A stretch of 64,000 bases of DNA from Alkalihalophilus pseudofirmus (GTDB lineage Bacteria > Bacillota > Bacilli > Bacillales > Bacillaceae_D). The first letter of the stretch is position 1. Each line of letters starts with the position of its first letter. Of the stretch, positions 7,551 through 59,706 are shown in pieces. The stretch is from positions 2,832,001-2,896,000 of the forward strand of contig NZ_CP117835.1 in NCBI RefSeq assembly GCF_029094545.1, read 5' to 3'. A model generated the notes under the pieces. The model had not been told where the DNA came from, did no database searches, and saw only the letters and a program-made list of their open reading frames with translations. Position numbers and translations under genes: made by a program.

Positions 7551-8355
7551 ATTTTTGTTGAAATGGAACGCCAATCCCATCAAGCCATTTTAAGATTCCT
7601 GAAGCATTGATTACTTTTGAAAAAGAGATACGCTCAGCAAGGAAAATTAAAAATCCTACCCCAAAAACAATCAACCATTGGATGTGCGTGGGTGTAAATT
7701 GAATAATAATGATCGCTAAGACTGCTCCTGCGGTCGTTGATCCGTTATCGCCAAGCAAAGCCTGCCTATGGCCTTCAAGTACAAACCACAAATAAAAGAT
7801 AGCCAGTCCGTATATTAAAAGAAAAAAGGCAGGAGCTGGGTAGCTTAGGAGGATTGGAATCAAAATAATTGTGGTGAATTTACATACTCTAAGCGGCCTG
7901 GTGTCAAACAAATTTGCTAGATGAGGCAGCCAGCTTAACAATAAAAAATAGCGTAATGCTTCATAGATAGACGTTGTGTGCAGGTGATACACAAAAAGCA
8001 TTGATAAAATAAAGGTCCCTATCAACTTAATAAGTCCTGTTGTCGGGATTTTTTTAGTCCATACAAAATATAAATGCCCGCGAAGTCCCTTTGGTTCCTT
8101 TGTTCCGTAACGATCATCTATAAAACCTAAAAACCAAATCCCCACAACATAAGCAAGAGCTTGGTAAGAAAATGCAATGGCATACGTTTCTTCAGGCACA
8201 ATCATGCAATAAGTGGCATAGCCATACAAAATGATTACCCCTAAGCTGTATGGAACGGCCTTTCCTTCATAATTGACCACAGTCCAACCAAGTGAGCGAA
8301 AAGCAATCATACTGATATATGCAATGATCGGAACAGTGATAAGTAATGCGATCAT
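7549..8355 (-). CDS. MraY/WecA-like polyprenyl-phosphate glycosyl-1-phosphate transferase homologue
   Basis: A 268-residue, very hydrophobic protein with about eight to nine membrane segments. It keeps family 4 transferase signatures: GFIDDRYG (the DDxxD-like cytoplasmic motif), NLFDTRPLR (the NxxN/D region) and LLGDNGSTT. It is short for this family (MraY and WecA are about 320-360 residues) and the NAxNLxDGxDG signature is altered, so it may use a different substrate or have diverged in function. It overlaps the upstream glycosyltransferase gene by 4 bases (ATGA), so the two are translationally coupled. I infer a role in an undecaprenyl-linked envelope glycan or lipid; the substrate is unknown. 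Confidence 0.7.
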   Translation of the reverse strand: MIALLITVPIIAYISMIAFRSLGWTVVNYEGKAVPYSLGVIILYGYATYCMIVPEETYAIAFSYQALAYVVGIWFLGFIDDRYGTKEPKGLRGHLYFVWTKKIPTTGLIKLIGTFILSMLFVYHLHTTSIYEALRYFLLLSWLPHLANLFDTRPLRVCKFTTIILIPILLSYPAPAFFLLIYGLAIFYLWFVLEGHRQALLGDNGSTTAGAVLAIIIIQFTPTHIQWLIVFGVGFLIFLAERISFSKVINASGILKWLDGIGVPFQQK

Positions 8356-9047
8356 TTCTCCACCACTCTCATTCGAACGGATCGCATTCTAATAACTCTC
8401 AGTTGACGTTCAATATCAATCCACTGCTTTAATCGATGCATAAAACCAGCAGGAGACTTCCCCATTTCTCTATGGGTCATGCGAGTCTCCACTTCCTTTA
8501 CCACTGCTCCAGCTAATAGGAAGTCAATCGTCATCTTTGTCTCCACACCAAACCCATTATATTCTTCGTTAAGTAACAGATCGAGCCATTTGCGATGAAA
8601 GATTCGTTGACCGGATAAAGGGGCCTCTATCATTGCTCCTGTATACTTTAAAATAATCGATTGCGCTCTTCTCTTCACGAAGCCAAAACCTGCTCTATCA
8701 CCAGCTTTCACCTTAGAGATCACTAAATCCGCCAGATTATCTTGTATTGGGACTATGAGATTTTTCAGTTCAATTGCAGACCTTCCAAGATCCGCATCTA
8801 CACATGCAATGAATTCCCCCCTTGCAGCTTGCCAGCCAATTTTCAATGCATGGCCCTTGCCTTTATTTTGAGAAAGGTCAATAACATGATCTGCGTATTG
8901 ATGAGCGATTGTACTCGTTTGGTCCGTACTTCCATCATTAATAATAATAATTTCAAGCAATCCAGGTATATGGCGCAGAGCGTCAATTGTCTCTTTAATG
9001 AATACTTCTTCGTTATAAGCAGGAATAATCACTGAGACATTACTCAT
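8352..9047 (-). CDS. Family 2 glycosyltransferase
   Basis: A 231-residue GT-A fold enzyme of the dolichyl-phosphate-sugar synthase type: SVIIPAYNEE at the N terminus, INDGSTDQT, NKGKGHAL and the metal-binding DADLG motif around residue 90-95. It has no C-terminal membrane helices, so it is probably a peripheral cytoplasmic enzyme that uses a nucleotide sugar. The start overlaps the end of steA and its stop overlaps the MraY-like gene, making a three-gene unit. It could glycosylate a polyprenyl phosphate or lipid made by its neighbour; donor and acceptor cannot be told from sequence. Confidence 0.8.
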   Translation of the reverse strand: MSNVSVIIPAYNEEVFIKETIDALRHIPGLLEIIIINDGSTDQTSTIAHQYADHVIDLSQNKGKGHALKIGWQAARGEFIACVDADLGRSAIELKNLIVPIQDNLADLVISKVKAGDRAGFGFVKRRAQSIILKYTGAMIEAPLSGQRIFHRKWLDLLLNEEYNGFGVETKMTIDFLLAGAVVKEVETRMTHREMGKSPAGFMHRLKQWIDIERQLRVIRMRSVRMRVVEK

Positions 9048-10161
9048 GATGAAATGCCCCTTTTTTTCGAATCCAATCCTTCTTATCAGCTGCTTTTTTT
9101 ACCCATTCACTCACAACAGCTTCTAACTGTTTCATCCGATTAACAATCGTGCCTAAGTGATTTTTCTCAAGCTTATGAATCCCTTTAAGGTCTGTTAAGC
9201 AATCACCGGCCTGTATTCTAGCTAATACACTTGATGCCATTCCTGGCCTACCCTTTTCAAGATAATCCCTCATTCCAAACCTGCAGCCAACTAAATAAAT
9301 ATGATCAGCATTAGACCAATAAGAAGCTTGAATAGCCATGTCTTCACTTGTTCCGACCAAAGAAAGGGTTTGATAAGACAGTCCTAAACTCGATAACCGC
9401 GTGCTGCCGGGAGAATATCCATCTTCATATGAATGACAAACAAGTGCCGCCCCTGACTGCAGCGATTCTTCACTGACTGAATCCATATCCCCAATAATAA
9501 AGTCAGGTTGGTAGCCTAATTTCCTAAGTCCGTCTGCTGCTCCGTCAACGGCAATCACGATTAAGTCCGCTTGATTTAACAGCTTTTTAGCATAGGCTAA
9601 ATCTTTTTCATACCCCCCGCCTCTAGCTACGATCAGTACTTTTTGTTTTTCTAGACGGTCAAACACTTCCGGTAGATGTTTCTTTAACATAAAGGTTGCT
9701 TTTTCTTTCTGAGCATAATCAAGCGTATTCGTAATGAAATCATCAAATCGATAACTATACGACGCTTTTGCCAGGCCTTTTAATTGATTAACCACTTGTG
9801 AATTATAGGAAGCAACGGCCGCAATTTCTTCATATCCATCAAAGGATTTCACATAAAGCTTATCTTGAATAATTAGCGCTTCTTCCCCGTCAAATATTTT
9901 CTGTTTTTCCATCATGCAGACTACATCAAACACATGTATTCCAGCCGATAGTAACATCTCGATATTTGAATGCTCATATCTCCCTGTCATCGATGTTGAA
10001 GCATTTACAATAGCCCTTACTCCCCGCTCAATCAGACCGCTTGCGGAGACAGAATCAATATCTTCATGCCATAGGAATGCGATTGACCCTTTTGGAATAT
10101 GATGAATTAACTTTTTCGTTTGCTTATTCTCATAGATCGGCCCCAAAATCACTTGACTCAT
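9040..10161 (-). CDS. steA: SteA-like protein with thiamin-pyrophosphokinase-type catalytic domain
   Basis: A 373-residue protein. The N-terminal half (HHIPKGSIAFLWHEDIDSVSA, then VRAIVNASTSMTGRY) and the central part IVIAVDGAADGLRKLGY...DFIIGDMDSVS match the family annotated as putative cytokinetic ring protein SteA, whose core resembles thiamin pyrophosphokinase. SteA is known from actinobacterial cell separation; the Firmicute homologue has no established function that I know of. I use the second of two adjacent ATG codons (10161), 7 bases from GAGAGGG. It leads an apparent operon with the glycosyltransferase and the MraY-like gene, suggesting an envelope-related role. Confidence 0.75.
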   Translation of the reverse strand: MSQVILGPIYENKQTKKLIHHIPKGSIAFLWHEDIDSVSASGLIERGVRAIVNASTSMTGRYEHSNIEMLLSAGIHVFDVVCMMEKQKIFDGEEALIIQDKLYVKSFDGYEEIAAVASYNSQVVNQLKGLAKASYSYRFDDFITNTLDYAQKEKATFMLKKHLPEVFDRLEKQKVLIVARGGGYEKDLAYAKKLLNQADLIVIAVDGAADGLRKLGYQPDFIIGDMDSVSEESLQSGAALVCHSYEDGYSPGSTRLSSLGLSYQTLSLVGTSEDMAIQASYWSNADHIYLVGCRFGMRDYLEKGRPGMASSVLARIQAGDCLTDLKGIHKLEKNHLGTIVNRMKQLEAVVSEWVKKAADKKDWIRKKGAFHHE

Positions 10162-14574: not shown

Positions 14575-15024
14575 CTACAACATCTCTAAAAAGCGCTCGG
14601 TTACTTGAGGTGCATCTTCTTTATGTTTACAAATGATAAGGATCGTATCATCACCGCAAATGGTCCCCATAATCTCCGTCCAATCTAGATTATCAATGAG
14701 TGCCCCAATGGCATTTGCATTTCCGGGCAATGTTTTCATCACGATCATATGATCTGATCGATCAATACTGACAAAGCTGTCCATCAAAGCTCGCTTTAGC
14801 TTTTGCAACGGATTAAATCGCTGGTCTGCCGGCAAGCTGTATTTATATCGGCCGTCAAGCATTGGCACTTTTACTAAGTGCAGCTCTTTAATATCTCTTG
14901 ATACCGTAGCTTGCGTGATAGAATATCCTTCCGCGCGTAATTGTTCAACTAAATCATCTTGAGTTTCAATCTCATGATTTGCAATGATTTCGCGGATCTT
15001 AATATGACGTTGTCCTTTGTTCAT
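14575..15024 (-). CDS. argR: Arginine repressor/activator ArgR (AhrC)
   Basis: A hexameric arginine-responsive regulator, repressing biosynthesis and activating catabolism. The 149 residues have an N-terminal winged helix ([19 protein letters not shown], with [19 protein letters not shown]) and a C-terminal arginine-binding oligomerisation domain containing [12 protein letters not shown] and [15 protein letters not shown] use the ATG at 15024, which has AGGTGAT just upstream and gives the same N terminus as B. subtilis AhrC; an in-frame GTG at 15033 lies inside that ribosome binding site. It is encoded between tlyA and recN. Confidence 0.96.
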
Positions 15025-15127
15025 ATTTATCACCTATTTCTATTCCATTTTCTTCATTATCCACAACTTTGGATGATTATACAACCAATAGTCAATTTAC
15101 TTATCTAAACTCTGTATTTATTCAAAA

Positions 15128-15976: not shown

Positions 15977-17866
15977 TTACGCCCTTTGTTGCTTTCTAGG
16001 GAGCATGGTTGACAGTTGTTCAACGACCCCTGCACTCGTTAAGCCAACTTCTTCAAGCAGCTGACCTACACTTCCATGCTCAATAAATTCATCTGGTATA
16101 CCCATTCGATTGACTTCTACGTTGTGATAATGGTGATCATGGAAAAATTCCAACACTGCACTGCCAAATCCGCCTTGTACACAAGCCTCTTCTAAGGTTA
16201 ATACCGGCATGTTTGCTTTAGCCAAATCATGAAGCAGCTCCTCATCTAAAGGCTTTGCTGAATTAGCATTAACAAGCTTCACAGAAATACCTTCTTTTGC
16301 GAGTTGTTCTACCGCTTCTTCTGCTACAGGAAGCATCGTACCGAAAGACAGTATACAGGCATCATTGCCATCTCTCACCGTTTCCCACTTGCCAATCGGA
16401 AGCACTTTTAGAGTTTCGTCCATTTTAATCCCGTAGCCATTCCCACGAGGATAACGAACCGCAATCGGCCCATCATTATACTGGGTAGCTGTATAAATCA
16501 TGTGCTGCAATTCGTTTTCATCTTTAGGCATCAAAATTTTCATGTTCGGCAAATGACGTAAATAGGCAATATCAAAGACTCCTTGATGAGTCTCACCATC
16601 AGCACCTACTAATCCAGCACGATCGATCGCAAACACAACATTTAAATTTTGACGGCATATATCGTGGACAATTTGATCATATCCGCGCTGCAGGAATGTT
16701 GAGTAGACGGCAAACACAGGCTTCATTCCCTGAGTAGCGAGCCCTCCTGCCATTGTTGTCGCATGCTGTTCAGCAATACCTACATCAATCATCCGATCTG
16801 GAAATTCCTTCGCAAACACATCGAGCTTTGTTCCACCAGGCATTGCAGCTGTAATTGCCACAATTCTTTTGTCCTCTTTAGCCACTTTTTTCAATGTCTC
16901 AGCAAACACACCGCTGTAGCTCGGAGGCCCTGGCTTTTTAACAACTTCACCGGATTCAATTTTGTATGGTCCTAAACCATGCCAAGTACCTTTTTCATCT
17001 TTTTCAGCCGGTTCATACCCTTTACCTTTCTTTGTTAGAACATGAATAAGAACTGGTCCTTTTGTCTTCTTTGCATAAGACAAATTCTCCTTTAAGTCAT
17101 CAAAGTCATGTCCATCAACAGGACCAAGATACGTAAAGCCCATTTCTTCAAAGAAGATCCCTGATACGAGCAAGTATTTTAAGCTGTCTTTGACACGTTC
17201 TGCCGTTGTGGCAAGCTTCCCGCCGAATGCTGGTATTTTTTTGATTAGCTGTTCTAACTCTTCTTTAGCTTTTTGGTATTTTCCAGCTGTTCGTAATCTA
17301 CCGAGAACACTGTGAAGCGCACCTACATTTGGAGCAATTGACATTTCATTATCATTAAGAACAACAATGAGATCTTTTTGCTCATGTCCAATATGATTCA
17401 GGGCTTCAAGAGCCATTCCACCAGTAAGGGCACCATCTCCAATAATCGCTACAACGTTTTCATCTGTCCCCTTCAGATCACGCGCAACAGCCATACCCAT
17501 AGCTGCAGAAAGAGAAGTAGAACTATGACCTGTTTCCCACACATCATGTTCGCTTTCATTACGTTTTGGGAACCCGCATAACCCTTTATACTGTCTAAGC
17601 TGATCAAATTGGCCAGCTCTTCCTGTTAAGATTTTGTGTACATAAGCTTGATGTCCCACATCCCAAATAAATTTATCTTTCGGGCTGTCAAATAACTGAT
17701 GAAGAGCAAGCGTTAATTCAACTACTCCAAGATTGGGTCCTAGGTGACCGCCTGTTACTGAAAGCTTCTCAATAAGAAAGCTCCTAATGTCTTCTGCTAA
17801 TTCAGCCATCTCATCTTTTGAATAATTTTTTAGTACGCTCGGGTTTTTAAACTCTTCTAGCTTCAT
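15977..17866 (-). CDS. dxs: 1-deoxy-D-xylulose-5-phosphate synthase
   Basis: First enzyme of the methylerythritol phosphate pathway: it condenses pyruvate and glyceraldehyde 3-phosphate with thiamine diphosphate. The 629-residue protein shows the ThDP-binding [18 protein letters not shown]...[16 protein letters not shown], the DXS-specific insertion [11 protein letters not shown], the transketolase central motif [18 protein letters not shown] and [11 protein letters not shown]. The length is typical. It follows oapA by 37 bases and the OLE RNA, with ispA upstream, so both ends of early isoprenoid synthesis frame the RNA gene. Confidence 0.97.
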
Positions 17867-17903: not shown

Positions 17904-18500
17904 TCATTTTAACTTTTTCTTCGTTTTTACGTTGTTTTGAAATACTTTTATTTTTAATCTTACCTCTAAAAGGTACAATAATCTACCAACTTGGTAAATG
18001 ATCGGGGTTGCATAATGGATCGCCAAGGTTTTGCCAATCGCTTTTCCGCCAACAGTTAATGCGGCCACAACACTCGTAAACAGGACTGAAATCCAAAATT
18101 GCTGGATCGAGGTTTCGCCGTATCCTAGCTGGATAGAAAGTTGAAGTACAACATAAGCTGAGGCTGTACCACTGATAATACCTGATATATCCCCAATTAC
18201 ATCATTACAAAAATTGGCAAACTTGTCTGCATTGCGGGTAATTAACACCGCATGTTTTGCACCATTTAACCTCTCAGATGCCATTGCATGAAAGGGTTTT
18301 TCGTGTGCAGCTGTAGCCGCTACACCGATTGTATCAAAAAACACACCAAAAAAGACAATAATAAAAACGATGATCATGCCAACAGCCCATGTTACTCCAC
18401 TTAATACAAATGTGGAAATAACTGAAAAAATAGCCGCTAACACTAGTGTGATAACGGCAATTCCCAAACTCCAATGTATCGATTTCAATAGAGGTTTCAT
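17904..18500 (-). CDS. oapA: OLE-associated membrane protein OapA (DUF21 family)
   Basis: A 198-residue protein with four predicted membrane segments (about 8-30, 32-60, 105-125, 132-158) separated by a polar loop containing [22 protein letters not shown]. The family resembles the DUF21/CNNM membrane domain but has no CBS domains. In Bacillus halodurans the gene at this position, between OLE RNA and dxs, encodes OapA, which binds OLE RNA and carries it to the membrane. I start at the ATG at 18500, 12 bases after AAAGGTGAT; a longer frame to 18632 would read through the conserved 3' end of the RNA and begins at an unsupported TTG. The basic tail (KTKKKLK) could help RNA binding, which is inference. 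Confidence 0.85.
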
Positions 18501-18549
18501 ATTCGTATCTGTATCACCTTTATACTTAGTTATGTAACGTACATAAAAA

Positions 18550-19165
18550 TTAATGGAGTGGTCATCTAAAGAGTAAACTCTGTAGCTTAGGTCCAGTAGG
18601 TTTTCCCAATTCAGTCCCACGCGTCGCCGCAATGGTGGTTTCCCATTATACCAAATTTGACGCTGTCACCAAACGTCAGACTGGATTACCACTTAGTCTA
18701 CACTGTAATCCTCAATAGATGTCAACTGCAACTCAATTGAACAGTCTAGGAGATTTCCTCAACAGTCCCGAGCCATTCTTTTATCCTCTTTTGCAGAGCA
18801 GATTTCATATGGTAAGAACGTCTCATTGTTGGCCGACAATGAGGCGAACACATATCCATAATCCCCTCTAACTCCACTCAAGGCAGGCTACGCTGCAGAC
18901 AAACTCCCTAGTTTGCCTATGCAGGTTCATACCTTTTGCATAAAACGGCATCTAATACATACCGTTTCTGCAAAAGGCCTCCACAGTAGTAGGGTCATCG
19001 CCCACATGCCTTTGTGGATCGCCCTACTACCTTTTCTCCCAGTCAAGACCCAAGGCTGGGCGCCTCAAGCCAAGACAAGGAGCTTCATCGATGTGCCCTT
19101 TGGCGGATTTTTAGCCCCGCCTTCAAAAACGGAGGACTGACTAGAATACTGCACCACTCTTCGTA
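18550..19165 (-). ncRNA. ole: OLE RNA (ornate, large, extremophilic)
   Basis: About 615 bases without a credible ORF on the minus strand between ispA and oapA-dxs, the position and size known for OLE RNA in extremophilic Firmicutes. The 5' GAGTGGT (19153-19159) pairs with the 3' ACCACTC (18556-18562), closing the whole molecule. Internal helices I can see: CCCTACTAC at 19022-19030 with 18986-18994, a nested CCACA/TGTGG; CCTTTTGCA 18969-18977 with 18932-18940 extended by AAACGG/CCGTTT; CTCATTGT 18822-18829 with 18836-18843. A promoter ends at 19172. OLE RNA acts in membrane-associated ribonucleoprotein complexes linked to cold, ethanol and magnesium stress. Exact ends are inferred. Confidence 0.88.
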
Positions 19166-19171
19166 TACATA

Positions 19172-19201
19172 AGTATAACATGTTCTATACAAGAAGCTCA
19201 A
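19172..19201 (-). promoter_or_regulatory. Promoter of OLE RNA
   Basis: Minus-strand TTGAGC (19196-19201) and TATACT (19172-19177) with an 18-base spacer, placing transcription start near 19165, directly before the closing helix of OLE RNA. The RNA may also be made from upstream ispA transcripts; no terminator separates them. Confidence 0.6.
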
Positions 19202-19227: not shown

Positions 19228-20118
19228 TTAATGGTCGCGGCCTGCTACATAATCAGTTAAAGCTAAAAGCAACGTTCGGTCCATCTTCACTGCCTCAAGA
19301 TGTTCTTTTGCTTTCATTGTATGCACATCAAGCATTTTCTTTGCTCCATCTAGCCCAAGAAGACTAGGATATGTGCTCTTATTATTTCCATCATCGCTTC
19401 CAACCGGCTTACCTAGTTTATCTGAGTCTCCTTCAACATCAAGGATGTCATCTTTAATTTGAAAAAGCAGCCCGAGCTCAATAGCAAACATACGCAAATG
19501 TTCTAAGTCTTCCTCACTTGCATCAGCTAAAACAGCCCCTGCGATGATTGAATAAGCTAGAAGATCTCCTGTTTTATGGTGATGAATGTCTGCTAACTCC
19601 TTAACAGTCAGTGATCGATTTTCACCCTCAATATCAGCCACTTGACCCCCGACCATCCCACAAGGCCCGCTTGCTTTGGCTAATTCCCGCACTAATGTCA
19701 AAGCTTTTGCAGGCTCCTCACGTACAGCAGACATACTTGTAATTAATTCAAAACTATATGTAAGAAGAGCATCTCCTGCAAGTATTGCCATTGCCTCTCC
19801 ATATACTTTGTGGTTTGTCGGCTGGCCTCTTCTTGTATCATCATCATCCATGGCAGGCAAGTCATCATGAATAAGTGAATACGTATGAATCATTTCTATC
19901 GCACAAGCCAGATCAAGACCGTCTTCTATTGGTCGATTAAATCCGTCTAATGTAGCAAGCAAAAGGAGGGGGCGAACTCTTTTCCCTCCGGCTTTCAAGG
20001 AGTAGGTCATTGCTTGTTTTAACGTGTCTGGAGCTCTGAGGTCTTCGATATATGAAGGGAGTCTGGCATCGATTAATTTCCTATATTCGTTAAAGAAACC
20101 CTTTAATTGCTCGTTCAC
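19228..20118 (-). CDS. ispA: Farnesyl diphosphate synthase (geranyltranstransferase)
   Basis: A 296-residue prenyltransferase that adds isopentenyl diphosphate to form farnesyl diphosphate. It has the first aspartate-rich motif in [20 protein letters not shown], the KAGGKRVRP substrate-binding segment near residue 42, the PCGMVGGQ motif and the second aspartate-rich motif [13 protein letters not shown]. Length is the same as the B. subtilis enzyme. It overlaps xseB by 4 bases, and OLE RNA follows immediately. Products feed undecaprenyl phosphate, quinones and heme side chains. Confidence 0.96.
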
Positions 20119-47793: not shown

Positions 47794-47957
47794 TTTAACC
47801 AGAAAGTTTCGTTCTATTAAGAACTGTCTTCGTAGGTGGCTCAACATTTGAGCACTCTCCAGAGCTGCGTCCTGTAAGAGTCTTCTTTGCCTGAGAGATT
47901 CACAAATTTTGCTTGCTCCTTCGGCGCTGCGCAGCTAATACGCAGTCTCTCCCCCTA
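47757..47957 (-). ncRNA. Tandem glycine riboswitch (gcvT element)
   Basis: The minus-strand leader of gcvT. Aptamer I has the conserved GGGGGAGAGAC (47945-47955), GCGCCGAAGGAGCAA and AATCTCTCAGGCAAA blocks. Aptamer II has CTCTGGAGAGTG, CACCTACGAAGACA and ACTTTCTGGTTAAAGGACAG; its core departs from the usual CACCRAAGG and CTTTCAGG. The downstream intrinsic terminator overlaps the 3' side of aptamer II, so glycine should favour read-through into gcvT, as in B. subtilis. Confidence 0.95.
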
Positions 47958-47980
47958 CTTTCATCCGCAAAAGCTTCACT

Positions 47981-55625: not shown

Positions 55626-55707
55626 TGCGGGTGAAGGGAGTCGAACCCCCACGTCATAAGACACTAGATCCTAAGTCTAGCGCGTCTGCCAATTCCGCCA
55701 CACCCGC
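55626..55707 (-). tRNA. tRNA-Leu(UAG)
   Basis: 82 bases with a long variable arm; anticodon TAG in CTAGA-CTTAGGA-TCTAG. CCA is not encoded (ACTACA follows). Last tRNA of the array. Confidence 0.96.
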
Positions 55708-55716
55708 GTATGAAAA

Positions 55717-55792
55717 TGGTGAGCCATGAAGGACTCGAACCTTCGACCCTCTGATTAAAAGTCAGATGCTCTACCAACTGAGCTAATGGCTC
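55717..55792 (-). tRNA. tRNA-Lys(UUU)
   Basis: Complete cloverleaf with encoded CCA; anticodon TTT in the loop CTTTTAA. Confidence 0.97.
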
Positions 55793-55800
55793 AAACTAAA

Positions 55801-55875
55801 TGGTGACCCGTACGGGATTCGAACCCGTGTTACCGCCGTGAAAGGGCGGTGTCTTAACCGCTTGACCAACGGGCC
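55801..55875 (-). tRNA. tRNA-Glu(UUC)
   Basis: Complete cloverleaf with encoded CCA; anticodon TTC in CCGCC-CTTTCAC-GGCGG. Confidence 0.97.
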
Positions 55876-55886
55876 ATTCATAAAAG

Positions 55887-55977
55887 TGGCGGAGAAGGAG
55901 GGATTTGAACCCTCGCGCCGCTTGCGCGACCTACACCCTTAGCAGGGGCGCCCCTTCAGCCACTTGGGTACTTCTCC
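55887..55977 (-). tRNA. tRNA-Ser(GCU)
   Basis: 91 bases with long variable arm and encoded CCA; anticodon GCT in the loop CTGCTAA. Confidence 0.97.
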
Positions 55978-55978
55978 A

Positions 55979-56053
55979 TGGCTCCACAGGTAGGACTCGA
56001 ACCTACGACCGATCGGTTAACAGCCGATTGCTCTACCACTGAGCTACTGTGGA
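55979..56053 (-). tRNA. tRNA-Asn(GUU)
   Basis: Complete cloverleaf with encoded CCA; anticodon GTT in ATCGG-CTGTTAA-CCGAT. Confidence 0.97.
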
Positions 56054-56054
56054 A

Positions 56055-56131
<77 letters not shown>

Positions 56132-56146
56132 ATGGAAAAATGGAAA

Positions 56147-56217
56147 AGCGGGTGATGAGAATCGAACTCACATCATCAGCTTGGAAGGCTGAGGTTTTAC
56201 CACTAAACTACACCCGC
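56147..56217 (-). tRNA. tRNA-Gly(UCC)
   Basis: 71 bases; anticodon TCC in CAGC-CTTCCAA-GCTG. CCA not encoded (TTTT follows the discriminator). Its 5' half is duplicated at 56341-56371. Confidence 0.95.
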
Positions 56218-56221
56218 ATAT
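56187..56221. repeat. 35-bp direct repeat, copy 1 (inside tRNA-Gly(UCC))
   Basis: Identical over 35 bases to 56341-56375, 154 bp away. It covers the 5' half of tRNA-Gly from just before the anticodon through four bases of 5' flank. Confidence 0.95.
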
Positions 56222-56340
56222 TAAAATAATCGTTGCTTTATTCAGCTCTCGCCAAATACTATGTCTCTTCCTCTTCTAGCAACTCAAGAAGTTAAATGTG
56301 TCGAGACAACTCGCAGATAATACATAGTAGTATTGCTCGT
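56222..56340. other. 119-bp spacer between tRNA-Gly and its half copy
   Basis: No ORF or tRNA is present. On the minus strand a small hairpin CGAG-TTGT-CTCG and the related phrases ATACTACTATGT and ACATAGTATT are seen. By position it is either what remains of an element inserted at the tRNA or non-tRNA sequence carried along in a duplication. Confidence 0.6.
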
Positions 56341-56371
56341 GGCTGAGGTTTTACCACTAAACTACACCCGC
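56341..56371 (-). pseudogene. Isolated 5' half of tRNA-Gly(UCC)
   Basis: On the minus strand: acceptor 5' strand GCGGGTG, the full D arm and the 5' strand of the anticodon stem, ending CCTCAGCC. The anticodon, T arm and 3' acceptor are missing; instead 119 bases of unrelated sequence run to the intact tRNA-Gly. With four flanking bases it makes the second copy of the 35-bp repeat (56341-56375). Confidence 0.9.
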
Positions 56372-56387
56372 ATATAAAGTAAATAAA

Positions 56388-56464
56388 TGGTGCGCCCTGA
56401 GAGATTCGAACTCCCGACCTTTTGATTCGTAGTCAAACACTCTATCCAGCTGAGCTAAGGGCGC
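56388..56464 (-). tRNA. tRNA-Arg(ACG)
   Basis: 77 bases with encoded CCA; anticodon ACG in TTTGA-CTACGAA-TCAAA. Confidence 0.97.
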
Positions 56465-56473
56465 AAATATAAA

Positions 56474-56545
56474 AGCGGAAGACGAGATTCGAACTCGCGA
56501 CCCCCACCTTGGCAAGGTGGTGTTCTACCACTGAACTACTTCCGC
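56474..56545 (-). tRNA. tRNA-Gly(GCC)
   Basis: 72 bases; anticodon GCC in CACCT-TGCCA-AGGTG context. CCA not encoded (TTTT follows). Confidence 0.96.
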
Positions 56546-56550
56546 AAAAA

Positions 56551-56625
56551 TGGCTGGGCTAGCAGGATTCGAACCTACGCATGACGGAATCAAAATCCGT
56601 TGCCTTACCGCTTGGCGATAGCCCA
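56551..56625 (-). tRNA. tRNA-Gln(UUG)
   Basis: 75 bases with encoded CCA; anticodon TTG in ACGGA-TTTTGAT-TCCGT. A second tRNA-Gln(UUG) lies at 59635-59706. Confidence 0.97.
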
Positions 56626-56635
56626 AAACTAAAAA

Positions 56636-56712
56636 TGGGGCGACTGATGGGAATCGAACCCACGAATGCCGGAATCACAATCCGGTGCGTTAACCACTTC
56701 GCCACAATCGCC
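56636..56712 (-). tRNA. tRNA-His(GUG)
   Basis: Encoded CCA; anticodon GTG in CGGAT-TGTGA-TTCCG context. The extra 5' G (-1) opposite C73, diagnostic of tRNA-His, is present. Confidence 0.97.
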
Positions 56713-56726
56713 ACCTTAGTAATAAA

Positions 56727-56811
56727 TGGTGGAGGGGGACGGATTCGAACCGCCGAACCCTGAGGGAGCGGATTTACAGTCCGCCGCGTTTAGCCACTTC
56801 GCTACCCCTCC
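56727..56811 (-). tRNA. tRNA-Tyr(GUA)
   Basis: 85 bases with long variable arm and encoded CCA; anticodon GTA in GCGGA-CTGTAAA-TCCGC. Confidence 0.97.
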
Positions 56812-56828
56812 ACTATACTGTTTTTAAA

Positions 56829-56905
56829 TGGCGGTCCGGACGGGACTCGAACCCGCGACCTCCTGCGTGACAGGCAGGCATTCTAACCAACTGAACTACC
56901 GGACC
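56829..56905 (-). tRNA. tRNA-Asp(GUC)
   Basis: 77 bases with encoded CCA; anticodon GTC in CCTGC-CTGTCAC-GCAGG. Confidence 0.97.
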
Positions 56906-56909
56906 ATTT

Positions 56910-56986
<77 letters not shown>

Positions 56987-57021
56987 TCGTTTTAAAGTAG
57001 TATTTACTATTTAAGAAAATA

Positions 57022-57114
57022 TGGCGGAGGAAGAGGGATTCGAACCCCCGCGCGGTTTAACCCGCCTGTCGGTTTTCAAGACCGATCCCTTCAGCCGGAC
57101 TTGGGTATTCCTCC
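57022..57114 (-). tRNA. tRNA-Ser(UGA)
   Basis: 93 bases with long variable arm and encoded CCA; anticodon TGA in CGGTC-TTGAAAA-CCG context. Confidence 0.97.
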
Positions 57115-57122
57115 GCGATATA

Positions 57123-57198
57123 TGGTGGAGCCTAGCGGGATCGAACCGCTGACCTCCTGCGTGCAAGGCAGGCGCTCTCCCAGCTGAGCTAAGGCCCC
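57123..57198 (-). tRNA. tRNA-Ala(UGC)
   Basis: 76 bases with encoded CCA; anticodon TGC in CCTGC-CTTGCAC-GCAGG. First tRNA of the array. Confidence 0.97.
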
Positions 57199-59634: not shown

Positions 59635-59706
59635 TGGGCTATAGCCAAGTGGTAAGGCACCGGACTTTGACTCCGTTATTCGCTGGTTCGAATCCAGCTA
59701 GCCCAG
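59635..59706 (+). tRNA. tRNA-Gln(UUG), isolated copy
   Basis: 72 bases, anticodon TTG in CCGGA-CTTTGAC-TCCGT, with a C-U mismatch at the foot of the anticodon stem; CCA not encoded. It has its own terminator. It differs from the copy at 56551-56625 in the anticodon and T arms. Confidence 0.93.

Follow-up and report, generated by a model that had tools for sequence, protein, structure and literature searches.

The window analysed here is a 64-kb stretch of the genome of Alkalihalophilus pseudofirmus. On its minus strand, an OLE RNA and the gene for its partner protein OapA are located between two genes of isoprenoid metabolism. The features of the locus, in the order of transcription, are:

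19228-20118, minus strand: ispA, polyprenyl synthetase family, upstream neighbour (PF00348, E 7.2e-61)
19172-19201, minus strand: predicted promoter TTGAGC-18-TATACT with TG before the -10 element, in a position conserved in relatives
18542-19173, minus strand: OLE RNA, full-length Rfam match; the span includes the unpaired flanks of the model
19153-19159, minus strand: 5′ strand of the terminal helix, GAGUGGU (covariation, 88 sequences)
18556-18562, minus strand: 3′ strand of the terminal helix, ACCACUC (covariation, 88 sequences)
17904-18500, minus strand: oapA, OLE-associated protein A, 198 aa (match to OapA encoded beside OLE)
15977-17866, minus strand: dxs, 1-deoxy-D-xylulose-5-phosphate synthase, downstream neighbour (PF13292, E 1.4e-121)
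14575-15033, minus strand: ArgR/AhrC-like repressor, read by eye from the translation

The Rfam model for OLE RNA (RF01071, cut-off 50 bits) matches the window at 18542-19173 on the minus strand with 519.3 bits (E 1.1e-150), untruncated and over model positions 1-616. The sequence-only reading had proposed OLE RNA for this region and had suggested a covariance-model scan as a check; the full-length hit obtained with that scan bears the identification out. The score falls inside the range of intact OLE RNAs in the family (504.5-538.6 bits), the positions written in capital letters in the Rfam consensus are largely retained, and a covariance-model search of the genome identified this copy as the single one. 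The match is 632 bases long and about 616 bases lie between the predicted ends, which is near the ~600 nt of the family; the 5′ start of the transcript, as predicted from the promoter, likely lies near 19165. The GGCC of the P9 loop, a reported dimer contact (PMC12286853), is present as GUCGGCCAAC. Three ORFs of at least 50 aa are located entirely within the RNA, every one of them antisense and the longest 75 aa long, in line with the earlier statement that the region has no credible ORF, and the locus was therefore dismissed as coding. The OLE RNA of the window is an already known, ordinary member of its family.

The oapA gene is located directly downstream of OLE, with 55 bases between the terminal helix and its start codon. 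Its product is 100% identical to the proteins of A. pseudofirmus OF4 and A. marmarensis, 83-94% identical to proteins from records with Halalkalibacter in their titles and 75% identical (residues 1-189) to the protein of H. halodurans DSM 497; with identities of up to 100% to OapA of relatives, its designation as the partner gene is confirmed. The start used in relatives corresponds to ATG 18500, which is preceded by a AAAGGTGAT-like ribosome site. One ORF of 242 aa in the oapA frame extends into OLE from TTG 18632; this TTG was rejected as the true start because the relatives align from ATG 18500. The protein had also been labelled DUF21-type, which needs correction: the match to PF01595 (CNNM/DUF21) stays under the Pfam cut-off (17.6 vs 28.4 bits, E 0.0032) and hints weakly at a distant likeness, although the literature links OapA to the same CNNM/DUF21 domain (PMC11332333). 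Position 66 of OapA (window 18303-18305), within an otherwise nearly constant motif, is H, whereas the ten other relatives in the alignment carry D or N.

To describe the gene order we used the named loci, which are the best 80 of 111 OapA relatives in named genomes. In 79 of these 80 loci ole-oapA lies between ispA on its upstream side and dxs on its downstream side, all on one strand, which agrees with the isoprenoid-gene setting read earlier for the window. The remaining locus, L148, is truncated: its contig begins only 26 bases ahead of oapA, and the locus also fell outside the position filter used. As for the ArgR/AhrC-like repressor gene further downstream, ArgR is a reported interactor of OLE RNA in H. 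halodurans (PMC10898510).

Promoter and terminal helix

The promoter pattern alone is not above chance, since a 6-kb scan contained 6 promoter-like sites vs 12.4 expected; its weight therefore lies in position and conservation. TTGAG together with TATAAT or TATACT precedes OLE in 21 of 21 loci of the window's family, as judged by eye and including one locus with a broken OLE. When at least 9 of 12 promoter positions are required to match, 60/79 loci from named relatives have such a promoter in the 47 bases before OLE. The same threshold is reached in 3/474 control windows taken 150-650 bases further upstream and in 90/1580 mononucleotide shuffles of the spacer; the control windows are mostly ispA coding sequence and differ in composition from the spacer, so that the shuffles are the fairer control. 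The predicted promoter, already proposed for the RNA from the window alone, is thus conserved in its place. For H. halodurans, an own promoter of ole and a processed RNA of ~630 nt have been reported (PMC9723947).

No promoter with at least nine matches precedes OLE in the other 19 of the 79 loci (L150, L152, L158-L165, L168, L169, L171-L174, L180, L185 and L186), which include 14 of the 15 Fictibacillus loci. These loci may have another type of promoter or may rely on read-through.

The two ends of the RNA are joined by a 7-bp helix, in which GAGUGGU (19159-19153) pairs with ACCACUC (18562-18556), exactly at the coordinates given in the sequence-only reading. The helix was analysed in an alignment of 88 of the 91 OLE loci, 19 from the window's family and 69 from the phylum. 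Standard pairs are present in 98.2% of the 616 cells, all seven pairs are intact in 78/88 sequences, and two-sided changes occur at 7/7 pairs (124 cells). Sliding one side of the helix by 1-3 bases reduced the paired cells to 31.5-70.0% and the two-sided cells to 4-23, and 500 shuffles averaged 83.7% paired, with none above 85.6%. Within the window's own family (19 rows) no two-sided change was found, and the support from covariation therefore comes from the 69 distant rows. The phylum loci were drawn from the high-scoring part of the list (290/398 genomes matched), so that divergent OLE RNAs are under-represented in this alignment. The 7-bp end helix is real. In the Rfam structure line both ends of OLE are unpaired and the helix is omitted; a published description assigns P1, P2 and P10-P15 to one domain close to both RNA ends (PMC12265935). 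P1 is probably the same helix as the one seen here, and we therefore do not claim it as new.

OLE-associated proteins and their distribution in the family

The genome that contains the window also encodes OapB and OapC, and the reading frames of OapA, OapB and OapC are all intact. OapB (111 aa) matches the solved OLE-associated protein B with an E-value of 2.1e-36, and its gene is located between ORFs that we read by eye as map and infA. OapC is an L7Ae protein of the YbxF type, with 140.6 bits vs the NCBIfam cut-off of 113 bits for the L7Ae-like family and with YbxF among its best solved-structure matches. Both oapB and oapC are reported to be usual, not obligatory, in genomes with OLE (PMC11332333). 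The Pfam KOW model was tried as a finder of OapB and was rejected for lack of sensitivity: its score in the window's own genome, 20.2 bits, stays below the cut-off (22.3), and OapB went undetected in G026, the genome that we take as H. halodurans DSM 497. OapB was therefore searched for in the family with the OapB protein of the window's genome. The OapB of G026 agrees with the solved OapB chain.

OLE was matched in 21 of 41 genomes of the family and OapA in the same 21. Twenty genomes contain OLE and OapA, both intact by score and length, together with OapB. No match to OLE, OapA or OapB was found in 20 others, in searches that used stricter filters for OLE than for the two proteins. The exception is G027, a congener of H. 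halodurans, in which OLE and OapA are broken and no OapB was found. Its OLE (L021:1501-1985) gives a match of 301 bases and 123.9 bits; approximately the first 250 bases are kept, and gaps occur at otherwise constant places. The oapA gene has shrunk to an ORF of 73 aa; of its neighbours, ispA is complete and dxs has an open frame through the part of the locus that was read. Between map and infA (L214:2349-2619), OapB was not found in the remaining 271 bases. Two L7Ae-family hits are present in G027, as in six other genomes tested, with and without OLE. Since three lesions are found at two places, an assembly error is unlikely. Earlier work has mentioned defective OLE genes in organisms that lack OapA (PMC11332333), and this kind of event is therefore already known. 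OLE, OapA and OapB might form one unit that is retained or lost in its entirety in the window's family, with G027 as a natural triple mutant, a proposal that we put forward tentatively and with more doubt than conviction. The natural loss in G027 is the most useful by-product of the analysis of this locus.

Probable function of the gene pair and comparison with known systems

We interpret the locus as a functional ole-oapA gene pair that forms the OLE ribonucleoprotein together with OapB and OapC, with a probability of roughly 0.96. This is based on the full-length match, the single copy, the 100% identity of OapA, the presence of the OapB and OapC genes, the gene order, the co-occurrence in the family and the GGCC in P9. 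Counted against it are the OapA score below the CNNM cut-off and the two complete CNNM-CBS-CorC proteins encoded in the genome.

OLE would be transcribed from its own sigma-A-type promoter within the isoprenoid gene cluster, and probably by read-through from the upstream genes as well. Its ends would pair through the 7-bp helix, and the RNA would fold, dimerise and bind OapA in the membrane along with OapB and OapC, which are encoded elsewhere in the genome. The resulting ribonucleoprotein may have the same role as in H. halodurans, that is, protection against alcohol, cold, excess Mg2+ and poor carbon sources. We infer transcription, processing, dimerisation, membrane binding and the stress role from work on H. 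halodurans and clostridia. In H. halodurans, OLE RNA arises both from a promoter of its own and as part of a longer transcript, and the RNA is presumably processed (PMC9723947); it binds OapA in the membrane and supports growth under stress together with OapB and OapC (PMC9723947, PMC12265935). A clostridial OLE was reported to dimerise by cryo-EM (PMC12286853). The most likely principle would be that OapA constitutes a CNNM-like membrane domain for which the RNA supplies the regulatory part instead of CBS and CorC/HlyC; that the RNA and OapA stand in for a CNNM-CBS-CorC transporter is a published idea (PMC11332333).

The region could instead serve chiefly as an extended 5′ leader, regulating oapA and dxs in cis, with no separate RNA being made. 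The distance of only 55 bases from the end helix to the start codon of oapA, and a scan that detected no terminator between OLE and oapA, are compatible with such a leader. We nevertheless regard it as quite improbable, because an RNA of ~630 nt has been detected in H. halodurans, where it is among the most abundant transcripts (PMC9723947), and because OLE RNA is reported to bind several proteins (PMC12286853, PMC12265935). The state of G027, with OLE and oapA broken, OapB gone, ispA complete and dxs open as read, likewise fits a separate device. The decayed OLE of that relative (G027, L021) shows at the same time that decay occurs in the family, and the window might accordingly hold a relic, an OLE-like sequence that no longer works in this strain. 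A full-length match with a score within the intact range, consensus capitals that are largely kept, a conserved promoter and intact frames for OapA, OapB and OapC make this even less probable than the leader. The antisense ORFs of up to 75 aa might finally be taken to indicate a missed coding gene, or the region a structured RNA unrelated to OLE; given the RF01071 match with an E-value of 1.1e-150 and the covarying end pairs, we consider either to be practically impossible.

The two complete CNNM-CBS-CorC proteins of the window's genome (L209:435-1715 and 8081-9325) share ~54% identity. In G026 the CNNM model gives nothing above the cut-off, with OapA as the one match below it. G027 encodes three complete CNNM-CBS-CorC proteins, which are 27-32% identical to the pair of the window's genome, and a fragment of 142 aa that is its only CNNM of the type found in that pair. 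Carriers of OLE are reported to have mostly one MpfA or none, OLE and MpfA being inversely related (PMC11332333). The contrast between G026 and G027 fits this relation, whereas the window's genome, with OLE and two CNNM-CBS-CorC proteins, sits awkwardly with it. A hand count of CNNM matches over the Pfam cut-off, made in related genomes with MpfA and its paralogues pooled and with fragments in G036, G016 and G027, gave 40 for the 20 OLE-intact genomes, 74 for the 20 without an OLE match and four for G027; seven of the OLE-intact genomes have three or four such matches. By these pooled counts, the inverse relation between OLE and CNNM proteins in the window's family is loose. If the CNNM proteins of G027 took over, the idea of an RNA-regulated metal-ion transporter would be directly testable between two congeners.

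Among known OLE RNAs, that of H. halodurans (G026/L002/L147, taken as DSM 497) shares with the window the full-length match, the order ispA-OLE-oapA-dxs, the place of the promoter and the OapB gene; its score of 538.6 bits vs 519.3 bits reflects ordinary sequence divergence. The OLE of G009, taken as A. pseudofirmus OF4 and a separate assembly, has the same score and match length as that of the window and its OapA is 100% identical; no difference was noticed in the parts compared. The OLE RNAs termed variant 1 and variant 2, from the TANB77 and RF39 clades, have a short P7-P9 or are without P7/P8 (PMC11332333), whereas the window's OLE matches the whole model. A search of the open literature for 'OLE RNA' and 'pseudofirmus' in one paper found none, which does not imply absence from print.

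For OLE RNA, an Rfam model, genetic work and cryo-EM structures already exist, and a scan of GTDB R214 gave 2,822 hits in the Bacillota (PMC11332333); one more sequence therefore adds little. Since few structured bacterial RNAs are larger than OLE and its biochemical role is unsettled, clean comparative data are useful. The locus contributes modestly to these, with a covarying end helix that Rfam omits, a promoter place kept in 60/79 loci and the loss in G027.

At the Rfam gathering scores, the 64-kb window contains 19 matches in total, namely OLE, 17 tRNAs and one glycine riboswitch aptamer. The aptamer (RF00504) is located at 47868-47964 with 66.6 bits and is the only aptamer over the cut-off. 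Sixteen of the tRNA genes are packed at 55626-57198 on the minus strand, and one more is found at 59635-59706 on the plus strand.
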